Shown here piece by piece: positions 29,274 to 43,844 of a stretch of DNA of 64,000 nucleotides. The translations under genes were made by a program, and so were the position numbers. The DNA is from Streptomyces agglomeratus (lineage in GTDB: Bacteria > Actinomycetota > Actinomycetes > Streptomycetales > Streptomycetaceae). Each line of letters opens with the position of its first letter. Within the stretch, counting starts at the first letter, position 1. The stretch is taken from contig NZ_MEHJ01000001.1 in assembly GCF_001746415.1 (NCBI RefSeq), forward strand, positions 682,001 to 746,000. Direction: 5' to 3'. The notes below the pieces were generated by a model. It saw nothing but the letters and a program-made list of their open reading frames with translations. It was not told the origin of the DNA and did no database searches.

Positions 29274-29501
29274 TCAGCGACGGCAGGCGGCCACGATGGT
29301 CAGCAGGACGAGCGCGATGGCCGCCAGCTGGAGGCACGCGTGGCTTGTACCCGGCCCCCTCTTGCGGGTCTCGACGTGGCCACCGGGGGGCGTCCCGGGA
29401 TGCTTGCGGGCGTAGTGCTCGATCTGCCGGCGCAGCCCCTCGGACTCTTCGAGCCACGGGGTCTTGAAACTGCACTCGCCGCACCAGTAGCGGTTGGCCA
29501 C
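29274..29501 (-). CDS. Small Cys/His-motif protein with a C-terminal membrane helix
   Basis: 75 aa. It starts at GTG 29501 with AAGGAG 5 bases upstream. The N-terminus has CGEC followed by H and H in QIEHYARKH, a layout compatible with one zinc site, then a basic linker and a C-terminal helix (LAAIALVLLTIVAAC). It is divergent from the HTH-NACHT gene across 148 bases. Function unknown. Confidence 0.72.
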   Translation of the reverse strand: MANRYWCGECSFKTPWLEESEGLRRQIEHYARKHPGTPPGGHVETRKRGPGTSHACLQLAAIALVLLTIVAACRR

Positions 29502-29649
29502 GTCGGCTCCTTGCCTTTCGTCGGTGTGCGCACAGGACCGACGGTGACCTTTGTCATGTTCGCTGAACAGGCCGGGGAACCGGCCATCCGTGACCGGTGG
29601 CCGCCGGTAGGCTCGCCGCCGTGCGAAATGGCGAGCAGGGAGACGCTCG

Positions 29650-32193
29650 GTGACAGATGAACTCGGCACGTTGTTGCGCCGACTGCGCGATGCGGCGGAT
29701 TTGACCCAGGAACAGGTTGCCGAACGGTCCGGGGTGAGCGTGCGCACCATTCGCCGACTGGAGAGCGGCAACTCCACCAACCACCGCATGGGAACGGTGA
29801 ACCTGCTCGCGGACGCGCTCGAACTCGGTGAGGAGGACCGCCGACGCCTGGCGGCGACCATCACCGCACCGCGGGGCGGGCCGGCCTTCCGAGCACCTGC
29901 ACCCGAAGAGGCCGCCGCGCCCGTGCCCGAAGAGGCCGCCGCGCCCGTGCCCGCATCCGAGACCGGGTCGGTCGCCCCCCAAAGCCAGTCGGTCGCCCCC
30001 GTACCCGGCGCTCTGCGGCCCGGCGAGGCCCTGCCGGGTCCCAGCACGTCCGCGACGCCCACCCGCTTACCCGTACATGACACCGTCGCCGCCGCCGCGC
30101 GAGAACTCGCGACGGAGGTCCGGCGGCGCTGGCGCCGGGAGGAGGCGCAACGCAGGGTCCACGACCCGTATCCCCTGCCGGTCCGGTGGGAGCCGGCGCC
30201 TGCCGGTCTGACCGACCGAACGGAGAACATCCAGCGTCTGTGGCCCGGGGAGACGGCGCGCGAGTTGGACCTGGAGGGTGACCTCCGGAGCGTGTCCGAC
30301 GTCTACCTCCGAATCCCGTCCGGACGACTGGCGATCCTCGGCAGGGCCGGTTCGGGGAAGTCCGTACTCACGATCAGGTTCGTACTGGACCTTCTGGAGG
30401 CCCCGGTCACGCACGGCCGTGTGCCGGTCATCTTCAGCATCGGCTCCTGGGACCCGACGACCACCGCACTGCGGGACTGGCTGGTCGGCCTGCTGCTGCG
30501 CGACCATCCCCATCTGGCCGGTCGCGGCCCCCGCGGGGCGACCCTGGCCGCCGCGCTGGTCGACGCCGACCTGATCCTCCCCGTCCTGGACGGGTTCGAC
30601 GAGATCGCCGAAGGTCTGCGGCGGGAGGCCCTGGACGCCCTCAACGCCACTTCGTCGCCGCTCGTCCTCACCAGTCGGCGTGACGAGTACGCCGAAGCGG
30701 TCCGGGCCGCGCACGCGCCGCTCGTCTGGGCGGCGGGCGTCGTGCTCAGCGACCTCACCCTCGACGACCTCGCCGGCTACCTGCCCCGCACCACGCGAAC
30801 GATCACGCGGGAAGGGGGCGGAGACGACAGCGCCGGTGGGCCAGGGACGGCGTGGGAGACGGTCATCGGAGAACTGCGCACGCGGGAGAGCCCGGGGAGC
30901 GCGAACCTGGCGACAGCCCTGACCACCCCGCTCATGGTCATCCTCGCCCGTACCCTGTACAGCGAGATACCCGGCCAGGATCCGGCCGAACTCCTCGACG
31001 TCACCCGCTTCCCCACGGTGAGGAGCGTGGAGGAACACCTGCTGGCGGGCTTCGTGCCCGCCGTCTACCGGCGCCGGCCCCCCGAACGGGACGCCGCCGG
31101 CCGGCAGCCGAGGAGTCCTGGCCCGGATGCCGCGAGCGCCGAGCGCTGGCTCGGCCACCTCGCCCACCACCTCGTCCGCTTCGACCGCGACCGGCACGAC
31201 CTCGCGTGGTGGCAGCTCAGCGACTCGCTGTCGCGCTCGACCCGCACCTTCGCCGTCTTCCTGGCCACCGCCCTGAGCGTCGCCCTGGCCGACTGGCTGG
31301 TCGGCCTGCTGCTCACACCGATCGGGATCGGCGAACTCCTGTTGCAGGGCGGTCTCATGGGGCCTGTCGCGGGCATCGCCTTCGGGTCCGTCTACGCGAT
31401 CATGGACAGGTCCGGGGGCGGAGCGGTCGTCGAACCGACCCGAGTACGGGTGACGCTGCGCGGCTTCCACGGCGGTCTCGGCCGCCGGCCCCTGCGCACC
31501 TTCATCGTCCGGTTCGGCCACGGTTTGTTCGGGGGGACCGTCATGGGCATCGGATGCGCCTGCGCCCTCGCCCTCGAACGCGCGCTGTACTCGGGGAGCC
31601 CTCTCACCGACCCGCGCGTCATCGAAGGCACTCTGATCAACATGGTGGTCCTGGGGCTGATCTTCGGCTCGGCCGCCGGCCTCGTCTTCGGGCTCATGGC
31701 CGCACTCGAAGCACCCGTGGACGTCACCACGGCGGCCACCCCGGTCAGCCTGCTGTCCTCGAACCGTACGACGATGGTGCGACAGTTCCTGGTACTGGCC
31801 CCGACACTCACACTGGCCATCGCCTTCGGCGGGTACGTGATCGTCCAGCTGCTCCAGGGCTCGATGGGACGACTCAACTGGGGCTTGCAGGACAGCCTGT
31901 TCATCGGAGCGGTCGGCGGACTCGGGGGCGCGGCCTCCTATGTGCTCGCCTTCACCGCCTGGGGACAGTGGTTCGTGTTCTCCCGCGTCTGGCTTCCGCT
32001 GACCGGCAGGCTTCCCTGGGACCCCGCCGCGTTCCTGGACGACGCCTACCGGCGCGGGGTCCTGCGGCAGACCGGCGCCGTGTACCAGTTCCGCCATGTC
32101 CGGCTGCAACACCACCTCGGGAACGCGTTCCGCCGACAGCACGCCGACTTCGCACCGGCCACCTTCCCGCCCCCACGAGCCGGGGCCTCCTGA
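29650..32193 (+). CDS. HTH-NACHT NTPase-membrane protein
   Basis: 847 aa. Residues 5-67 form an XRE helix-turn-helix (TQEQVAERSGVSVRTIRRLE). An Ala/Pro/Glu linker contains an exact 8-residue duplication (EEAAAPVP). A NACHT-type STAND ATPase follows, with Walker A GRAGSGKS 231-238 and Walker B LILPVLDGFDE 308-318. From about 520 there are roughly six membrane segments, then a soluble tail. STAND proteins are ligand-triggered switches; some bacterial NACHT proteins act in phage defence. DNA binding and membrane anchoring in one chain is unusual. GTG start with GGGAG upstream. Whether the small divergent gene belongs with it is unknown. Confidence 0.85.
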   Translation: MTDELGTLLRRLRDAADLTQEQVAERSGVSVRTIRRLESGNSTNHRMGTVNLLADALELGEEDRRRLAATITAPRGGPAFRAPAPEEAAAPVPEEAAAPVPASETGSVAPQSQSVAPVPGALRPGEALPGPSTSATPTRLPVHDTVAAAARELATEVRRRWRREEAQRRVHDPYPLPVRWEPAPAGLTDRTENIQRLWPGETARELDLEGDLRSVSDVYLRIPSGRLAILGRAGSGKSVLTIRFVLDLLEAPVTHGRVPVIFSIGSWDPTTTALRDWLVGLLLRDHPHLAGRGPRGATLAAALVDADLILPVLDGFDEIAEGLRREALDALNATSSPLVLTSRRDEYAEAVRAAHAPLVWAAGVVLSDLTLDDLAGYLPRTTRTITREGGGDDSAGGPGTAWETVIGELRTRESPGSANLATALTTPLMVILARTLYSEIPGQDPAELLDVTRFPTVRSVEEHLLAGFVPAVYRRRPPERDAAGRQPRSPGPDAASAERWLGHLAHHLVRFDRDRHDLAWWQLSDSLSRSTRTFAVFLATALSVALADWLVGLLLTPIGIGELLLQGGLMGPVAGIAFGSVYAIMDRSGGGAVVEPTRVRVTLRGFHGGLGRRPLRTFIVRFGHGLFGGTVMGIGCACALALERALYSGSPLTDPRVIEGTLINMVVLGLIFGSAAGLVFGLMAALEAPVDVTTAATPVSLLSSNRTTMVRQFLVLAPTLTLAIAFGGYVIVQLLQGSMGRLNWGLQDSLFIGAVGGLGGAASYVLAFTAWGQWFVFSRVWLPLTGRLPWDPAAFLDDAYRRGVLRQTGAVYQFRHVRLQHHLGNAFRRQHADFAPATFPPPRAGAS

Positions 32194-32379
32194 CAGCGAG
32201 GGCGTGAGAGACGGGCCCGGTAGCGGCCCTGGACGGCACCGTTCGGCCCGGGTGGTGGCCGGTCACAAATGGCCGGTCGTACGGCCTGTCCGTCCGACGG
32301 CACGGGAGACCAGCATCGGAGCGTCCGACCCGCGGCGCTCATCCTGCCGCCGCGGGGACCCCACGACGACGGGTAACCG

Positions 32380-33483
32380 ATGACGTTTCTCCGCTTCACC
32401 ACGGTCGGCGCGGCCTTCACGCTCGCGGCCTTGACGGGCACCGGCGCGGCACACGCCGACGCACCGAACGCCGCGCCCGCAGCCACCGCCTCCGCTGCCT
32501 CCGCCTCCGCCGTCCCCGCCTTCACCGACGGTCACGGTCTGACGGTGGTCCCGGGGTCCACCGAGGTGCACAGCCCCACCGACTTCACGATCACGGTCAC
32601 CACGAAGCAGCTCTCCGGGAAGCACAAGATCCGCATCCTCTTGCCCGCCGGGTACGACGCCGACCCCGGCCGGCGCTGGCCGGTCACGTACTTCCTGCAC
32701 GGCGGTGGCGGCACAGTGAACGACGTCGCGGCGGCGCCGGCACTGCACTCGGACTCGATGATCACCGTGGTGCCGGACGGCGGGCTGAAGGGCTGGTACG
32801 CCGACTGGCTGATGCAGAACACCGCCGAAGGGGCCGCGAACTGGGAGACCTTCCACCTCACCCAGGTCGTCCCGTTCATCGACGCCAACCTCCGTACCCG
32901 CGCCGACCGGGCCCACCGGGCTGTCGTCGGACTGTCCATGGGCGGCTACGGCTCTCTCCACTACGCCGAGGCCCGGCCCGACCTCTTCGGACACGTCGCC
33001 GCACTGTCGGGAGGCATCGACTTCGGCATGCCGCAGGTCCGCGCGGCCGTCCTGGCCACCGAGCTCAACCTCACCGGCGCCTGGTGCGCGGCGAGCAGCT
33101 CGTCCGGCTCCGGCAAGTGCACCGGTTTCGGCCCCTACGTGGACAGTGACGCGATCTTCGGTTCGCCGTACCCGTTCTTCGACGCCGACCGCGTATGGAA
33201 GGCGGTCGATCCGGCGGCGCCGGCCAACCTCGCCAAGCTGTCCGGCACCGGTATCACCCTTTACACCGGCAACAACGACATCATCGACGTCCACACCGAG
33301 GCTGCCTCCAAGACCGTCAAGGCCCGCCTGGACCAGCTGGGCATCCCCAGCCGTCTCGTCAACTACGGCAACGGCGCGTCACTGGCCCCGAGCTGCGACG
33401 GCGGCCACAACTACGGCTGTTGGGCCCCCGCTTTCGCCGACTACGTCCCGCGCCTCGAAGCCGCCTTCGCCGCAGCGCGCTGA
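32380..33483 (+). CDS. Secreted esterase-D / antigen-85-like hydrolase
   Basis: 367 aa. Signal peptide (1-27, ending GAAHADA), a short Ala/Ser linker, then an alpha/beta hydrolase with YFLHGGGG, nucleophile motif GLSMGGYG, an acid in GNNDIIDVH and a terminal His in CDGGHNYGCW. It resembles the esterase family that includes mycolyltransferase antigen 85 and feruloyl esterases; with no mycolate genes in view, a carboxyl-esterase role is more likely. Four cysteines could form disulfides. Its stop lies only 34 bases before the deaminase-like gene, so cotranscription is possible. Confidence 0.85.
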   Translation: MTFLRFTTVGAAFTLAALTGTGAAHADAPNAAPAATASAASASAVPAFTDGHGLTVVPGSTEVHSPTDFTITVTTKQLSGKHKIRILLPAGYDADPGRRWPVTYFLHGGGGTVNDVAAAPALHSDSMITVVPDGGLKGWYADWLMQNTAEGAANWETFHLTQVVPFIDANLRTRADRAHRAVVGLSMGGYGSLHYAEARPDLFGHVAALSGGIDFGMPQVRAAVLATELNLTGAWCAASSSSGSGKCTGFGPYVDSDAIFGSPYPFFDADRVWKAVDPAAPANLAKLSGTGITLYTGNNDIIDVHTEAASKTVKARLDQLGIPSRLVNYGNGASLAPSCDGGHNYGCWAPAFADYVPRLEAAFAAAR

Positions 33484-33517
33484 CTGATCGGAAGGGTCTT
33501 CGAAGGAGAAGGACGTC

Positions 33518-35746
33518 ATGGTCTTGCACAGAGGTCGCCTGCGGTTACGCGGGTTCGCGGTGCTCACGGTGGCTCTCGCGGTGTTGCTGGGCGCGGATCC
33601 TGCGGCAGGGGCGCGAGACACAGCCACATTGTCTGCCGCCAGCGCTGAGAACGGCCCCAAGAAGCTTCCCGCCCCGGGCCCTCGGGGCAAACAGATCACC
33701 AAGTGGTTCCAGGATCCTGTCGGCAACATGGCTTATGCGGCGCGCAGGACTGCTGGGCTCGACACAGCGTACGGCCGCAATCTGGCCATCGGCTTCGTGG
33801 ACATCACCGGCTTGAACGGTGTGGACACCAATGGATACCGCGTGGTGGTGCCCAAGGAGTTGAAGACGAGTGATCCCGCGCTGTACAAGTCGCTCGGTCT
33901 CGCCCGCCGACCCCAGATAGAGCGGTTCGTGATCGTACCCACCTTCAACAATCCCTCCACGTCGGAGGCCGACGGCGCGCATTCCGAAATGGTGTTCTTC
34001 ACCCAAGAGTTACTGTTCATGGGAGTAGCGGACCGCAGCCGTACGTTTCTCCTCTACTCCGATCTCTCCCCCTGTGACGGATGCGCTCCGGAGATTCCGG
34101 AGAACACCGAAGTCCGCTGGATGACGAAAAGCGGGAAAGGATCGTTCCAACGCAGGGAGCGCATACTCAACGCTGCCGCCGCCGCGAGCCACGAGGCACA
34201 AATGACGGACGCGGACCGGGAACGCAACCAGAAGGCGGTGCTCCGCACCCGTCAGATGGTGCTGGACAAGCGCGCGCGGGAAGCGGAACGGTTGGCCCAG
34301 ACGTTCGGCAAGGTCACACCGAAGAAGTGCGCGACACAGGCGCCGCCGTCGACCCTGCCGGGCAATGAGTCCGCCGGCGTACACGCACAGTCGGCCTCGC
34401 TGGCGTTACCCCGTGCGCGTTCGGTCGCGTACCTCGCCGCGCCTGCCGCTCCCTGCGCCGAAGAGGACACGAAGGGAGCGGGCCGTGGGGGGCTGCCCAG
34501 GGCGCTGGCCGGACCGATGGCCGAGGCGTCAGGGGGGATCGATTTCTCCTCGCTCGAACTGCGGTATCTCTCCGACCCCGGCGACGGCAGCGGGCTCCAG
34601 TACTCCTTTGAGGCTCCGGCGGTGGCCGGCGGAGATCACCGGCCTCGTACCGGTCTGACGGCGGCTGACCAGGCCTCCGACGCCTTCTTCGTCTGGCTGT
34701 CACTGCATCCGAGTTCGTTCTGGGTCAATCTCAAGCCGAACGAGCCGGACCGCATCGTCGACAGTCGGCTGGGCCGTACGGATGCCGGGCGCATCATGCT
34801 CCAGGCCGACCTGCGGATGAAGAAGACCGTTGCCAAACTGATCCACCCCGACGCCGCGACGGGCCGGGAATTCTGGAACCGCGTCTCCGGCGCATGTATG
34901 TCGTTCCGGACCTGGATCCTCTCCGCGCCGGCCTCGGTGCACAAGAACGGCGACAAGCTCTACATCCTCGACGCGCCCCTCGACGTAAAGATGGAGACCC
35001 AGTACCAGCAGAAGACCGGCGCTTCCAAAACCGCCTCATGCCCTCAGCAGGACAAAGCCGCCGAAGACCGCAATGAGCGGCTGTTCCGAAGCCTGATCCT
35101 GCCGAAGCTGAAGCATTCCATCAACACGGCGCCGGAATACGCCGAACTGCGGAGGGTCTACCTCGCCCGTGTGGCCGCCGAGTGGTACCGCGAGCTGAGC
35201 CGTACCAAGCCCACCACCTATCGCGACCTCGTCGACAAGGGTGACATCACCCCCTGGCAGACCGAGAGCGACTGGAAGCCCACCGACACGTTCGACCAGT
35301 ACGTCCGCTCTCACACCAAGGGCGAGTTCAAAGTCAGCAAGAGGACGACCAGCGGCAACAAGATCTACGTCCGTACCTACTCCTACGGCGGCGTCGACCT
35401 CACCAGGATTCCCCTCCGTAAGGTCTCGGACGACCGCTTCGCTGCGCAGCACGCAGGTCTCGCCAAGGACATCGACCAGTCGCTGAACGCGCCCCGACCC
35501 GCGTCCGGAGGCACCGTCCTGCTCGGTGCACCCACTCCACGCCAGGCCGCAGGGCTCGGACCGTCCGAAGAGCCCACCTCCCCCGCCGCACTGGCGCTGC
35601 GCCTGCTCCCTGTGCTGCTGCTTCCCCTGGCTGCGCTGCTGTGGTGGCGCCGCCGCCGGCTGAGCGATTCCGCCTCCGCAAGTCCCTTGCGTCGTGCGGC
35701 GGCGTCCTCCACCCGTACGAGCAACACCTTCCGGAGGCCGTCATGA
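33518..35746 (+). CDS. Secreted, membrane-anchored protein with a deaminase-like zinc motif and a conserved unknown domain
   Basis: 742 aa. Signal peptide (1-32). Residues 85-200 carry H155-S-E157 and, 28 residues after that Glu, SPCDGC (C186, C189), with LLYSDL before it: the H-x-E / P-C-x-x-C pattern and strand of the cytidine-deaminase-like fold. Residues 215-265 are a charged helix. Residues 338-495 form a second block (GGIDFSSLELRYLSD, FWVNLKPNEPDR, LGRTDAGRIMLQADLRMKK, LYILDAPLDVKME) that I recognise as conserved in uncharacterised secreted proteins but cannot name. A membrane helix (690-710) and a basic tail end the chain, so most of it should lie outside the cell. Overlaps the next ATG. 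Confidence 0.85.
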   Translation: MVLHRGRLRLRGFAVLTVALAVLLGADPAAGARDTATLSAASAENGPKKLPAPGPRGKQITKWFQDPVGNMAYAARRTAGLDTAYGRNLAIGFVDITGLNGVDTNGYRVVVPKELKTSDPALYKSLGLARRPQIERFVIVPTFNNPSTSEADGAHSEMVFFTQELLFMGVADRSRTFLLYSDLSPCDGCAPEIPENTEVRWMTKSGKGSFQRRERILNAAAAASHEAQMTDADRERNQKAVLRTRQMVLDKRAREAERLAQTFGKVTPKKCATQAPPSTLPGNESAGVHAQSASLALPRARSVAYLAAPAAPCAEEDTKGAGRGGLPRALAGPMAEASGGIDFSSLELRYLSDPGDGSGLQYSFEAPAVAGGDHRPRTGLTAADQASDAFFVWLSLHPSSFWVNLKPNEPDRIVDSRLGRTDAGRIMLQADLRMKKTVAKLIHPDAATGREFWNRVSGACMSFRTWILSAPASVHKNGDKLYILDAPLDVKMETQYQQKTGASKTASCPQQDKAAEDRNERLFRSLILPKLKHSINTAPEYAELRRVYLARVAAEWYRELSRTKPTTYRDLVDKGDITPWQTESDWKPTDTFDQYVRSHTKGEFKVSKRTTSGNKIYVRTYSYGGVDLTRIPLRKVSDDRFAAQHAGLAKDIDQSLNAPRPASGGTVLLGAPTPRQAAGLGPSEEPTSPAALALRLLPVLLLPLAALLWWRRRRLSDSASASPLRRAAASSTRTSNTFRRPS

Positions 35747-36276
35747 CCTCTCCCACCGACAAATCCGCAGCACAGGACCCGGCGGCGTCGCCTTCCGGCC
35801 CTCTCCCGGTCTCCGGCTCTTCTCCGCCCCTGCAAGAGACGAGGGGCGCCTCGGGTGAGCCGGAGCGCCGCCCCTACGTGCGGCTGATGGCCGCGCTCGG
35901 CGGGATGGGTGCGGTAGCCGCCTTGATCGGCGTGCTGGTCGGCTTCACGACCGATCCGGCCTTCCCGCTGCCGGAGAAGTTGCCGACGTTGCCCACCAGG
36001 CCGGGCATGCCCTCGGGCCTGCCGACCGGACCGGGGACACTGCCCAGCGGGTTCCCGACCGGCTTGCCGACCGAGATGCCCACGGGCTTCCCCACCGGAA
36101 TGCCCACGGGTTTCCCTACCGACATCCCCACCGAGATGCCCACGGGCTTGCCCACCGACGTCCCCACCGAGATGCCGACCGGCTTCCCCACCGATTTCCC
36201 GACGGAATTCTCCGGAGGGCTGCCGAGTGGCTTCCCCGCGGACGGCTCGATCCCGAAGTCCGGAGGTACCCGATGA
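35743..36276 (+). CDS. Pro-Thr-repeat membrane protein
   Basis: 177 aa. A cytosolic Ser/Pro-rich N-terminus (1-45), one membrane helix (about 50-68, AALGGMGAVAALIGVLVGF), then 90 residues made of 4-residue units P-T-x-(M/F/L/I/V), for example PTGFPTEMPTGLPTD. The repeats lie outside the membrane and are probably extended and perhaps glycosylated; the function may be as a stalk or spacer. ATGA overlaps join it to both neighbours. Codon use in the repeat is GC-rich like the rest of the operon. Confidence 0.8.
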   Translation: MTSPTDKSAAQDPAASPSGPLPVSGSSPPLQETRGASGEPERRPYVRLMAALGGMGAVAALIGVLVGFTTDPAFPLPEKLPTLPTRPGMPSGLPTGPGTLPSGFPTGLPTEMPTGFPTGMPTGFPTDIPTEMPTGLPTDVPTEMPTGFPTDFPTEFSGGLPSGFPADGSIPKSGGTR

Positions 36277-37766
36277 CGACGGCCCAAGTAGTCCTCTTCC
36301 CGCCATCGGGACCGCCGCCTGCTCCCCGCATCCCACGCCACGGCATGGCCGCCGCGATCACGGTGGCGGTCGCCCTGTCGCTGGCCTTCGCCATGGGCCA
36401 GATCCTGTACTGGGCACAGCCCACCATCACTTCCCCACTGCCGTGGATGCGGGTGTTCAGGCTCCCGGAGCCGGCTCCTTTCACCTTGACGAAGAGGCTC
36501 CTCCACGTCGGCTGGATGATCGCCGCAGCCCTCGGTCTGCTGCTCCTGATCATGTACCGACGCACATCGGGGACGGGCACCGGCGGCCGTGTCGGAACCG
36601 TGCGGGCCTGCCAGTTTGGCATCCTGGGCGCTCTGCTGCTGCCCTACGCCGTCATGCCGCTTGACGTACTCGCCAGTGCCCCGCTGGTTCTCGTGATGTG
36701 CCTGCCCACCACCGCGGTGGCACTGCTGTGCGTGCATCGTGTGCAGTTGTACCGTCGCCTGCCGGGATGGCTGCTGCTGACGGGCTTCGGCTGGGGTGTG
36801 CTGATCGGGGGCGGGTTCGGAACCGTCATGATCGTGTGGTTCCAGCGGTACGCGGGTGGCTACCTGCTCGACTGGGAACACCCCCGGGACGCGATCCGTT
36901 CGCTCTACACGCTGCTGTCTCTCAACGCCGGAATGTTCTCCGAAATGGGCAAGGCCGCGGGGGTCGCCGTCCTCTACCTCCTCTTCCGACGGCACTTCGA
37001 CGGGGTGGTCTCCGGCGCTGTCGTCGGAGCGGCGGTGGGGCTCGGCTTCAATCTCACCGAGACCGTCCGGTTCATGACGGTCATCGATCCCGGCCAGGCA
37101 GCCACGCAGTTCTGGATACGGCAGGTGGTCGGGCTGATGGCTGTCCACGTGGCGTTCTCCGCCGTGGTGGGCGCCGGCTTCGGCGCGGCCCGTGGGCTGT
37201 CCGTGCGGAAGGACCGTCTGCTCGTCATCGGCGGAGGCGCCGTGGCCGCCATCGGCGGGCACTTCGTCACGGACGCGACCATGCCGAGGCTCGCCACACT
37301 GACCGAGGACCTCTTCTCCCACAACCAGACACTCGACCTGCTCGTGGGCGTGCCGCTCGTCACCGCCGTCACTTCGGGGCCGTTCGTTCTCGCGTCCGTG
37401 GTCATCCTCCGGCGGGGTCTGCGCGAGCAGGCCGTCGGCCTCGCTCAGGCACTGCGGGGGGAAGCGGGCGTCGGCACGGGCGCGGTCACCCGGCCGGAGG
37501 CGGACGTGCTGCTCTCCCCGCGGCGTCGCCTCCTGCTCGAACTGCGGGTGTGGCGCCGGGACGGACTCGCGGGCGTACGCCACCTGAGACGTCTCCACCG
37601 GGCGCAGCTCGACCTGGCCACGCAGCACTGGCACCGCACGTCTTCGGGAGCCGACTCTGCCGTGGCCAACGACGCTCCGCTGCGTGCACGCGTGCTGGAG
37701 TTGAAAGGTCTTGTCGTACCGGCCGTTCGTCCGTCTTCACCATCGGCGCAGGAGGTCCCGTCATGA
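36273..37766 (+). CDS. PrsW-like intramembrane protease homologue
   Basis: 497 aa, about nine membrane segments. The motif order is that of PrsW (M82) glutamic-type proteases: FSEMGK (223-227 region), GLGFNLTETV with E263, VHVAFSAVVGAGFG with H292, and GGHFVTDAT with H330. In the first motif the usual Glu-Glu is Ser-Glu, so activity is uncertain. PrsW enzymes cleave anti-sigma factors or other single-pass proteins in the membrane; the two single-pass proteins encoded just upstream are obvious candidate substrates. The last 110 residues form a charged cytosolic tail. Overlaps both neighbours (ATGA). Confidence 0.8.
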   Translation: MTTAQVVLFPPSGPPPAPRIPRHGMAAAITVAVALSLAFAMGQILYWAQPTITSPLPWMRVFRLPEPAPFTLTKRLLHVGWMIAAALGLLLLIMYRRTSGTGTGGRVGTVRACQFGILGALLLPYAVMPLDVLASAPLVLVMCLPTTAVALLCVHRVQLYRRLPGWLLLTGFGWGVLIGGGFGTVMIVWFQRYAGGYLLDWEHPRDAIRSLYTLLSLNAGMFSEMGKAAGVAVLYLLFRRHFDGVVSGAVVGAAVGLGFNLTETVRFMTVIDPGQAATQFWIRQVVGLMAVHVAFSAVVGAGFGAARGLSVRKDRLLVIGGGAVAAIGGHFVTDATMPRLATLTEDLFSHNQTLDLLVGVPLVTAVTSGPFVLASVVILRRGLREQAVGLAQALRGEAGVGTGAVTRPEADVLLSPRRRLLLELRVWRRDGLAGVRHLRRLHRAQLDLATQHWHRTSSGADSAVANDAPLRARVLELKGLVVPAVRPSSPSAQEVPS

Positions 37767-38104
37767 TCAACCACAGGCGTGTGCGACTGCCGGCCCTGGC
37801 CACGGCAACCGCGCTGCTCGTCCTCGGTGCACCCGCCTCCGCCGTGGCGCAGTGCTCGAACCCTGATTACAAGGGCAGTAGGTCGTTTCCCGGCGGAGCC
37901 TGCCCGGAGCACGTAGCGGGCTTCGCCTCGGGGGCGATGTGGGGTCTGCTCGCTCTCGCGGCGGGTCTCTGGCTCATCTCCGCGCTGCGCCGATCCCGAT
38001 CGGAAACCGACACCGACCTGGCGGCGATCGATGCGGTGTTCGGCGGTGCGCTGAACGAGGAGTCGGCGGCAGGGCGGCGCGAGGCGGACCACATGTCGCC
38101 GTGA
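37763..38104 (+). CDS. Small secreted/membrane protein of the deaminase-like operon
   Basis: 113 aa. Signal peptide (about 1-29, APASAVAQ), a short external loop with two cysteines (QCSNPDYKG and GGACPEH), one membrane helix (about 55-75) and a cytosolic acidic tail (TDTDLAAIDAVFGGALNEE). GGAGG lies 6 bases before the ATG, which overlaps the protease stop. No family recognised. Probably a small subunit of whatever complex this operon forms. Confidence 0.75.
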   Translation: MINHRRVRLPALATATALLVLGAPASAVAQCSNPDYKGSRSFPGGACPEHVAGFASGAMWGLLALAAGLWLISALRRSRSETDTDLAAIDAVFGGALNEESAAGRREADHMSP

Positions 38105-38196
38105 TCCGCTGACCCTTCGCACCGGCCGGCTGCGCGCCGGAGGGCCCGTCCGTAAAGCGGTGGACAGCTCTCCGGTGCTCGGCGAGCATCTCCGCG

Positions 38197-38745
38197 ATGA
38201 ATAACGAACTTCGCTCCATCCCCAAACGCGTCCGCTTCGTCCAGCTCAGCGCAAAGGCACTGCGGGCGCTCGCCGACGGTGACCTCGCCAGCGGCAGCGC
38301 CGAGGCCGGGGTCGCCCTTGACGAACACTTCGTCTGCGACCGGGCCCGCCATATTTTCGGCTATCGCGCTGACCAGCTCGCCGAAGACCCGTCTGCCGCG
38401 CCCTGGATCACGCGGGCCGCGGTGTCTGAGTCGGACGGCGCCGTTGTCGGCGACGCCGGGTTCCACGGGCCGCCGGACGAGGACGGCACGGTCGAGGTCG
38501 GGTACTCCGTCGTTCCCCGGTACCGCCGCCAGGGTTATGGCCGTGCCATGCTGACGGCGCTGCTCGTCAGGGCCGCCGCCGAACCCGGCGTCAGGACCGT
38601 ACGGGCCACTATCAGGTCCGACAACACCGCCTCCCTGGCCACCATGGCGGGCTTCGGATTCACGCGCGTCGGCGAGCAGGGGAACGAGCGCGACGGACTC
38701 GAGATCGTCTTCGAGGTTCCGGCAGACGCTATGCAGGCCGAGTGA
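38197..38745 (+). CDS. GNAT-family N-acetyltransferase
   Basis: 182 aa. The acetyl-CoA loop is RRQGYGRAM, preceded by VEVGYSVVPRYR and followed by VRATIRSDNTASLATMAGFGF, the standard GNAT strand-helix order. Substrate not predictable. Reads in the same direction as the preceding operon, 92 bases downstream, with no clear terminator between. Confidence 0.85.
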   Translation: MNNELRSIPKRVRFVQLSAKALRALADGDLASGSAEAGVALDEHFVCDRARHIFGYRADQLAEDPSAAPWITRAAVSESDGAVVGDAGFHGPPDEDGTVEVGYSVVPRYRRQGYGRAMLTALLVRAAAEPGVRTVRATIRSDNTASLATMAGFGFTRVGEQGNERDGLEIVFEVPADAMQAE

Positions 38746-39713: not shown

Positions 39714-39897
39714 CACGCCGTTCTGATGTGCCCGTCCGTGGCACGTTCCGGGTTTCCCGTCACCACCTCCCCGCACGTCGCTCTTGCGTGCCGTTTTGCG
39801 CCCGCTCGTCTCCTGTGGCGCGCCTGAACACAGAAAGCTGCCTGAAATTGGCGAACATGATGAATCAACCCATCGCGCACCGCATCGAAGGTCCGTC

Positions 39898-41417
39898 ATG
39901 GTAGCGGCGCGGATCACGGTCAACGGGAAAGAAACACCGATTTCACCGGCTGCGCCCCACACCACAACGCTGGATTTTCTGCGCGATCGTGGCCTCACCG
40001 GCACCAAGGAGGGCTGCGCCGAGGGTGAATGCGGCGCCTGTTCGGTCCTGGTGGCGCGTCCCGGGGTGAACAAGCCCACCGACTGGGTGGCGGTCAACGC
40101 CTGCCTGGTTCCGGTCGCCGCACTCGACGGTCAGGAGATCGTCACCTCCGAAGGTCTCGCCACCGCCGGCGAACCCGGCACGCCGCCCACCCTGCACCCG
40201 GTGCAGGAGGAGATGGCGGTCCGCGGCGGCTCCCAATGCGGTTACTGCACGCCGGGATTCGTTTGCAGCATGGCTGCCGAGTACTACCGCCCCGACCGCT
40301 GCGCGCACTCGGACTCGGGCGCGCACGCGGACTCGGGCTCCGACCCGGACTCGCACGCTGGCTCGGGCTCGGGCTCGGGCGAAACCGTCGACGCCGAGCA
40401 CGGGCCGAACGGTTTCGATCTGCACGCGCTGAGCGGAAACCTGTGCCGCTGCACCGGATATCGCCCGATCCGCGATGCCGCCTTCGCCGTCGGTACGCCC
40501 TCCGACGAGGACCCGCTGGCGCAGCGTCGCGAGCAGTCCCCGCCCGCGCCGGCTACCACTGAGTACACCCAGGACGACAGCGCCTTCCTGCGGAAGAGTT
40601 CCCTGGCCGAAACGCTGCGGTTGCTGCGCGAGCGGCCCGACGCGGTGGTGGTCGCCGGCTCGACCGACTGGGGCGTGGAGGTCAACATCCGTTCCCGCCG
40701 GGCGGATTGCGTCGTCGCCATCGACCGGCTGTCCGAACTGCGGGAGCTGCGCGTCGAAGCCGACCGCATCGAGATCGGGGCGGCGCTGACGCTCACCGAG
40801 ATCGAACGCCGCCTCGACGGTGAAGTCCCGCTGCTGGCAGAGTTGTTCCCGCAGTTCGCGTCCCGGCTCATCCGCAACGGTGCGACCCTGGGCGGCAACC
40901 TGGGTACCGGCTCCCCCATCGGTGACAGCCCGCCGGTGCTGCTGGCGCTTGAGGCATCGGTGGTGCTCGCCGACGCCGACGGTGAGCGCGAGGTCCCCCT
41001 GGCGGACTACTTCACCGGCTACCGGCAGAGCGTGCGCCGTCCCGGCGAGCTGATCCGCTCGGTACGCATCCCGTTGCCGCTGTCGCCGGTCGTGGCCTTC
41101 CACAAGATCGCCAAGCGGCGCTTCGACGACATCTCCAGCGTCGCGGTCGCCTTCGCGCTCGACATCGAGGACGGAATCGTCCGCAAGGCACGTATCGGCC
41201 TGGGCGGCGTGGCCGCCACCCCGATCCGCTCCCTCGCCACCGAGGCGGCCCTGGAGGGCAAGCCGTGGACGGCGGAGACGGTCGAGGCCGCGGCCCGGGA
41301 GCTGCGGGGCGAGGGCACCCCGATGAGCGATCACCGCGCCAGCTCCCTCTACCGCTCCGCGATGCTGGGCCAGAGCCTGCTGAAGCTGTACGCGCAAACC
41401 ACCGAGGCGGTGTCGTC

Positions 41418-41421
<4 letters not shown>
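39898..41421 (+). CDS. xdhA: Xanthine dehydrogenase-type FeS/FAD subunit
   Basis: 507 aa. Two [2Fe-2S] sites: C40, C45, C48, C69 (plant-type) and C114, C117, C183, C185. The FAD domain (about 225-400) shows VVVAGSTDWG and GATLGGNLGTGSPIGDSPP, and the C-terminal CO-dehydrogenase-flavoprotein domain follows. It passes electrons from the molybdenum subunit to NAD or another acceptor in purine oxidation. A Ser/Gly/Asp/His-rich stretch (about 136-172) is inserted between the two halves of the second FeS motif. ATG at 39898 with GAAGG upstream; an upstream in-frame extension lacks coding character. The stop overlaps xdhB. Confidence 0.92.

Positions 41422-43844
<2,423 letters not shown>

Follow-up and report, generated by a model that had tools for sequence, protein, structure and literature searches.

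In the polymorphic toxins linked to PrsW, as set out in the accessible text of Zhang et al. (2012, PMC3482391), PrsW lies in cis, N-terminal to a C-terminal toxin, and is the proposed releasing peptidase; it is tied there to deaminase and restriction-endonuclease toxin domains, includes RHS-linked cases and occurs in actinobacterial hosts. PrsW itself is marked by the motifs EExxK, a histidine in the fifth transmembrane helix (TMH5) and HxxxD, as given for the Bacillus subtilis protein in the available part of PMC4602095. Surface-anchored toxins such as MafB/MafA (PMC3482391) and the sortase-linked WapA of Streptococcus suis (PMC12704120) combine a constant region with an exchangeable toxin, which in the accessible portions of these sources is C-terminal, and Streptomyces umbrella toxin particles (PMC11062931) are likewise polymorphic protein toxins of this genus.

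Here we analyze four coupled genes, A to D, in a stretch of 64,000 nucleotides from Streptomyces agglomeratus (NCBI RefSeq assembly GCF_001746415.1, contig NZ_MEHJ01000001.1, positions 682,001 to 746,000 of the forward strand; hereafter the window). They encode a deaminase-like protein (A), a Pro/Thr-rich rod (B), a PrsW-family membrane protein (C) and a small two-Cys protein (D). As in the PrsW-dependent toxins, PrsW is associated here with deaminase and nuclease effectors, an RHS-linked case and an actinobacterial host; unlike in the toxins covered by the accessible text of PMC3482391, it is encoded by a gene of its own instead of being fused N-terminal to a toxin, its active site has changed or disappeared, the effector occupies the N-terminus of a different protein, and the set also includes a Pro/Thr rod and a small Cys-loop protein. 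A sequence-only reading of this DNA had held that no system with this set has been described. No report of the four-gene arrangement was found in the literature searched, but the claim has to be narrowed, since PrsW-linked polymorphic toxins in general had already been described. With MafB/MafA and WapA the locus shares a constant region, an exchangeable toxin and surface anchoring, whereas the exchangeable part of A is not C-terminal; this comparison concerns architecture, as the core domain of A was not looked for in those proteins. We consider it somewhat probable that A is a polymorphic, surface-displayed nucleic-acid deaminase whose platform descends from toxin systems of the PrsW type. 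The sequence basis for this proposal comprises the module composition, the gene coupling, a domain swap, the active-site states of PrsW and the toxin fusions of D. The umbrella particles are not known to share proteins with A to D.

An exchangeable enzyme domain on a constant carrier

Protein A carries a signal-like segment at residues 8-26 and a single C-terminal transmembrane (TM) segment, both predicted, as are all topologies given for A to D, from hydropathy. Given a signal peptide and a C-terminal TM segment, the N-terminal deaminase would face outward on a constant carrier domain, and the predicted topology supports the earlier description of A as an anchored, outward-facing deaminase-like protein. 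An alignment of 65 of the 121 available sequences shows H155, E157, C186 and C189 to be conserved in at least 90% of the rows. A thus bears the HxE and CxxC signature of the nucleic-acid deaminase superfamily, and the deaminase fold is assigned to it as well. As in that superfamily generally, the HSE motif is predicted to provide a zinc ligand and the catalytic Glu. Against Pfam, A yielded only sub-threshold matches to NAD1, APOBEC_N and SNAD4, at residues 150-195, and XOO_2897-deam (PF14440) gave no match in the window's A up to E 1. The likeness to XOO_2897-like toxin deaminases comes instead from relatives: L039, which is related to the window's enzyme domain, matches PF14440 with 38.9 bits (cut-off 27), and several A homologues among the matches listed belong to this family too, whereas the window's own domain stays below the cut-off. 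For the core domain of A, neither a Pfam family nor a solved relative was found. An open-ended protein of more than 3000 amino acids in an Omnitrophota metagenome-assembled genome (L032:7761-16901) starts with this core domain, and similar starts occur in the IMG/VR contigs L079 and L080.

Comparison with close relatives shows that the N-terminal domain is exchangeable. The DNA of the window and of locus L031 (S. lateritius) is 86% identical over 29283-32527 and 85% identical over 34489-38097, yet between both blocks just 90 bases align, in the signal-peptide region. Similarly, when two A proteins from S. lateritius (P0002 and P0010) are compared in 40-residue blocks, the first eight are 15-35% identical, the next two 68 and 85%, and the last eight 95-100%. 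These alignments indicate that the enzyme domain of A is exchanged at one and the same locus. To place this exchange in the wider family, 59 fetched loci were searched for the core: 55 had a core open reading frame (ORF), and after exclusion of two fragments (L030, L068) 53 were classified, the later loci L082 and L083 lying outside this count. Single linkage of these ORFs gave six N-terminal classes with 30, 9, 6, 5, 2 and 1 members. The class of 30 is nuclease-like, with E-x-K in 23 of the 30 and a sub-threshold Tox-REase-9 match in L019, while HxE...C motifs, sought by a simple pattern, occur in at least some members of the classes of 9, 6, 5 and 1; the two-member class (L040, L043) matches no recognised enzyme type. 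A further set, A3, comprises 48 of the 53 locus cores together with the window and L032. The A family thus pairs a constant region with exchangeable effector domains, as polymorphic toxins do, with the effector at the N-terminus; the C-terminal effector typical of such toxins is found only in the D fusions of L069, L073 and L081, described below.

Genes B, C and D form a recurrent, coupled cassette

All four ORFs of the sequence-only reading were recovered in the window at the coordinates it gave, as were its ATGA overlaps at 35743, 36273 and 37763. Overlap conservation in relatives was assessed for the B/C and C/D junctions: the 4-base C/D overlap is preserved in 17 of 17 other loci tested, and the 4-base B/C overlap in 16 of the 17 other loci resolved, L073 not being among these and L081 overlapping by a single base. 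Since the overlaps are kept across loci, coupling is a property of the cassette and not of the window alone. Moreover, the ratios of non-synonymous to synonymous substitution (dN/dS) between the window and L031, namely 0.26 for the constant part of A and 0.31 for both C and D, mark these as constrained genes. No terminator-like site was found in 32100-38400, where shuffled sequence leads one to expect just 1.8. Protein B matches the PT repeat PF04886 (9.5e-07, above cut-off) and has one TM segment at residues 48-66, and its plan of a TM segment followed by a P/T/S-rich tail is present in all 17 other loci resolved. Protein C is assigned to PrsW by profile (PF13367, 8.3e-22, 78.1 bits, cut-off 23.5) and has eight hydrophobic segments. 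Protein D shows two segments by hydropathy, one signal-like and one TM, and no Pfam match above cut-off.

Pooling of overlapping samples of 199, 391 and 392 genomes yielded 19 PrsW loci of the cassette type including the window, all from Streptomyces (L070 was not counted apart from L031); for comparison, any PrsW match at E 1e-3 occurs in 142 of the 199 genomes, and the cassette type corresponds to seven places below 1e-40. A adjoins B-C-D in 15 of the 19. In the other four no A was seen; three of these have D fused to a toxin and one (L074) ends at a contig edge. A recurrent, coupled four-gene set is therefore supported, but the order of the genes is not constant. Four loci (the window, L017, L018 and L031) read A-B-C-D and eleven (L037, L038, L046, L071, L072, L075, L076, L077, L078, L082 and L083) read B-C-D-A, which rules out a fixed order. 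Co-occurrence is also one-sided: B, C and D stay together in the loci examined, whereas A is often found without them. Among A loci outside the nuclease class in the 199-genome Streptomyces sample, 6 of 17 carry B-C-D (two of the 11 that do not, L043 and L044, lie near a contig end), and of the 30 nuclease-class loci none had the cassette PrsW family among the genes called up to 3.5 kb away. These counts show that A can occur without the cassette. Locus L083 has B-C-D beside an A whose N-terminus looks nuclease-like by eye, and in genome G102 one A gene stands beside B-C-D (L037) while a second, from the same N-terminal class, does not (L042). ORFs that resemble Ser/Thr kinases by eye lie near three cassettes, upstream in L046 and L081 and downstream in L069.

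PrsW active sites and toxin-bearing D proteins

The window's C shares with B. subtilis PrsW the family profile, the TMH5 histidine (H292) and HxxxD (H330, D334), but has SExxK (S223-E224-xx-K227) in place of EExxK; the residue E263 is also present. Three generic Streptomyces PrsW proteins retain EExxK. Across seven alignment columns (EE, K, E, H, H, N/D) the canonical state is found in these three and in L069, L073, L074 and L081. Ser or Thr replaces the first Glu, with the rest kept, in eight copies (the window, L017, L018, L031, L037, L038, L071 and L072), and seven copies (L046, L075-L078, L082 and L083) have lost the first Glu together with the Lys and both His; in six of these the second Glu is missing too. 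The PrsW tree separates the Ser/Thr copies and the copies with lost residues as two distinct groups, each with support of 100, while deeper branches have 61-70 and the outgroup branch is long. If generic PrsW represents the ancestral state, both altered states would be derived, and the window's C may be weakly active or inactive as a protease.

Three of the 19 loci, L069, L073 and L081, have no A in the fetched stretch and carry, in the position of D, a longer protein which starts with the signal/two-Cys/TM plan of D and ends in a toxin. The L069 protein (233 amino acids) matches Endonuclea_NS_2 (2.6e-14), and the gene after it matches SUKH below threshold; that of L073 (778 amino acids) matches the same family (3.8e-11), which is also carried by four of four of its homologues among the matches listed. 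The L081 protein (L081:8633-12598; 1321 amino acids) contains RHS repeats (2.3e-87) and Tox-HNH-EHHH (29.9 bits, cut-off 25); its gene shares an operon with those of a Pro/Thr rod and of a PrsW with the canonical site, and overlaps a downstream ORF without a family match. A profile built from 15 stand-alone D proteins, one of them overlong because its frame runs into an N stretch, retrieved the leaders of L069 (9.8e-11), L073 (2.6e-05) and L081 (0.0012) in a search of these three sequences that was subject to strong composition bias; the L081 match is weak, and its assignment also draws on position and plan. Toxin-fused D proteins in three loci tie B-C-D to classical polymorphic toxins. Genome G233 contains L069 as well as an A gene that lacks a cassette (L047), the two lying 172 kb apart.

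These data bear directly on a model put forward in the sequence-only reading, in which C, acting at or within the membrane, cleaves A, B or both and so frees an effector. The tight coupling of the genes, the retention of E224, K227, E263, H292, H330 and D334 in C and the role proposed for PrsW in polymorphic toxins (PMC3482391, accessible text) would fit such a release. However, none of the 15 A-associated PrsW copies has an intact site: all eight in the window's clade have Ser or Thr for the first Glu of EExxK and the seven in the other clade have lost the Lys and both His, an alteration or loss which disfavours cleavage of A by PrsW; many A proteins, moreover, have no such PrsW neighbour. 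Among the 19 loci, canonical sites occur only where D bears a toxin or, in L074, where the context is unclear, which makes D a likelier original substrate than A. We therefore regard release of the effector by C as unlikely, and infer that D, rather than A, was the original client of PrsW.

The wall-anchored nuclease class and candidate immunity genes

In the nuclease class, a LAxTG/LPxTG-type motif follows the core in 28 of 30 A proteins (the A protein of L026 passed LPXTG_anchor with 18.8 over 15.9 and narrowly missed strep_LAETG with 28.7, cut-off 30), and most of those inspected have a Pro/Thr-rich stretch ahead of this motif, likely the counterpart of B. Furthermore, 29 of the 30 loci have a gene from either DUF6333 (PF19859) or a second, unnamed family no more than 1.2 kb upstream, on the side where A encodes its effector; this gene can lie on either strand. 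In 25 of 28 cases a locus and its nearest neighbour by N-terminal domain have the same upstream family, a value that 3 of 10,000 shuffles attained when relatedness was ignored, and both families look like candidate immunity genes. DUF6333, the function of which is not known, stands beside nuclease-class A genes in L020, L054, L059 and others; its name was not found in the literature searched.

Some observations weigh against a toxin-like role for A. No conserved upstream gene, and hence no matched adjacent immunity gene, was found for the deaminase classes, and the DNA alignment of the window and L031 revealed no candidate immunity gene that travels with the swap. In addition, standard topology rules would put the toxins of the D fusions inside. 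The same lack of immunity genes would be expected if A formed an envelope barrier. The deaminase, or nuclease, would then act at the surface against nucleic acid from outside, be it extracellular DNA or phage DNA that reaches the envelope; the swapping of domains would stem from a phage arms race, and an enzyme that never meets the cell's own DNA would need no immunity gene. It is in line with this idea that the recognised N-terminal domains are nucleic-acid enzymes and that a gene for an HTH-NACHT protein lies upstream in the window, L018 and L031. Yet the nuclease-class relatives have candidate immunity genes, the D-fusion relatives are classical toxins, PADLOC gave no match for six of seven proteins tried (A and C included), and its matches to the HTH-NACHT protein are weak and mostly to the HTH part, so that we judge a barrier to be distinctly improbable. 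About as doubtful is a bolder variant, in which these loci represent a new class of effector display, with exchangeable nucleic-acid enzymes facing outward on an undescribed carrier and a PrsW-derived platform freed from proteolysis, and in which the deaminase class without immunity genes edits invading DNA or RNA at the envelope.

A proposed route from PrsW-type toxins to surface display

We favor the view that A is the effector of a polymorphic, toxin-like system of the cell surface, and infer its topology, display, toxicity and targets, as well as the roles of C and D, as follows. A would be exported via its signal peptide and held by the C-terminal TM segment, while B would serve as a separate Pro/Thr rod that replaces the in-cis Pro/Thr stretch and LAxTG-type anchor of the wall-anchored class. 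C and D would make up a membrane platform with its origin in toxin systems of the PrsW type, where the signal/Cys-loop/TM module of D was ancestrally the leading part of a toxin. Once the effector had moved to a separate protein A, PrsW proteolysis may have been altered, as in the window, or lost, as in the sister clade, leaving C mainly as a scaffold or conduit. The likely use of such a system would be contact-dependent attack on the nucleic acids of competitors. If correct, this proposal would extend polymorphic toxins to N-terminal, outward-facing effectors on a carrier domain for which no Pfam family or solved relative was found, would identify a PrsW family whose active site is lost when a different protein carries the toxin, and would add many new deaminases, enzymes that are of interest for base editing.

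Feature coordinates and neighbouring genes

Table 1. Features of the A-B-C-D locus, in window coordinates.
Feature	Position	Strand	Size or residues	Description
Gene A	33518-35746	+	742 aa	signal peptide (predicted), enzyme domain of deaminase type, constant core, TM anchor (predicted), basic tail
Exchanged segment, N-terminal enzyme domain of A	33593-34488	+		flanks align with L031, segment does not
HSE motif of A	33980-33988	+	residues 155-157	predicted zinc ligand and catalytic Glu
CxxC motif of A	34073-34084	+	C186, C189	predicted zinc ligands
Constant core domain of A	34490-35566	+	residues 325-683	
C-terminal TM anchor of A	35585-35641	+	residues 690-708	by hydropathy
ATGA overlap A/B	35743-35746	+		
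Gene B	35743-36276	+	177 aa	N-terminal segment, one TM, Pro/Thr-rich rod, outward (predicted)
ATGA overlap B/C	36273-36276	+		
Gene C	36273-37766	+	497 aa	membrane protein, PrsW family (PF13367)
ATGA overlap C/D	37763-37766	+		
Gene D	37763-38104	+	113 aa	signal peptide, two-Cys ectodomain (C31, C47), TM, tail (predicted)
Secreted esterase	32380-33483	+		PF00756; neighbour, ends 34 bases before A

The secreted esterase gene had been suggested as a possible member of the unit, but it is not an essential one. It is mostly missing in L031, where a short remnant remains at L031:7500-8000 between flanks about 85% identical to the window, and tblastn detected it in 3 of 44 loci (L018, L026 and L077). 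Because L018 combines an esterase 81% identical to that of the window with the deaminase class of L031, the esterase does not track the enzyme. Together with ORFs at 39784-43844 that resemble xanthine dehydrogenase by eye, its proximity might suggest that A is an ordinary surface enzyme for nucleoside or nucleic-acid salvage, around which B, C and D assemble a surface complex. We find this very hard to accept, as salvage predicts neither the exchange of deaminases and nucleases on one carrier nor paired upstream genes nor toxin-fused D proteins.

Further upstream, the HTH-NACHT-type protein (29650-32193; its NACHT match is just below cut-off) is possibly a regulator. Its gene is syntenic with A in two loci, L031 (85%) and L018 (65%), and also lies close to a nuclease-class A in L019 (45%).
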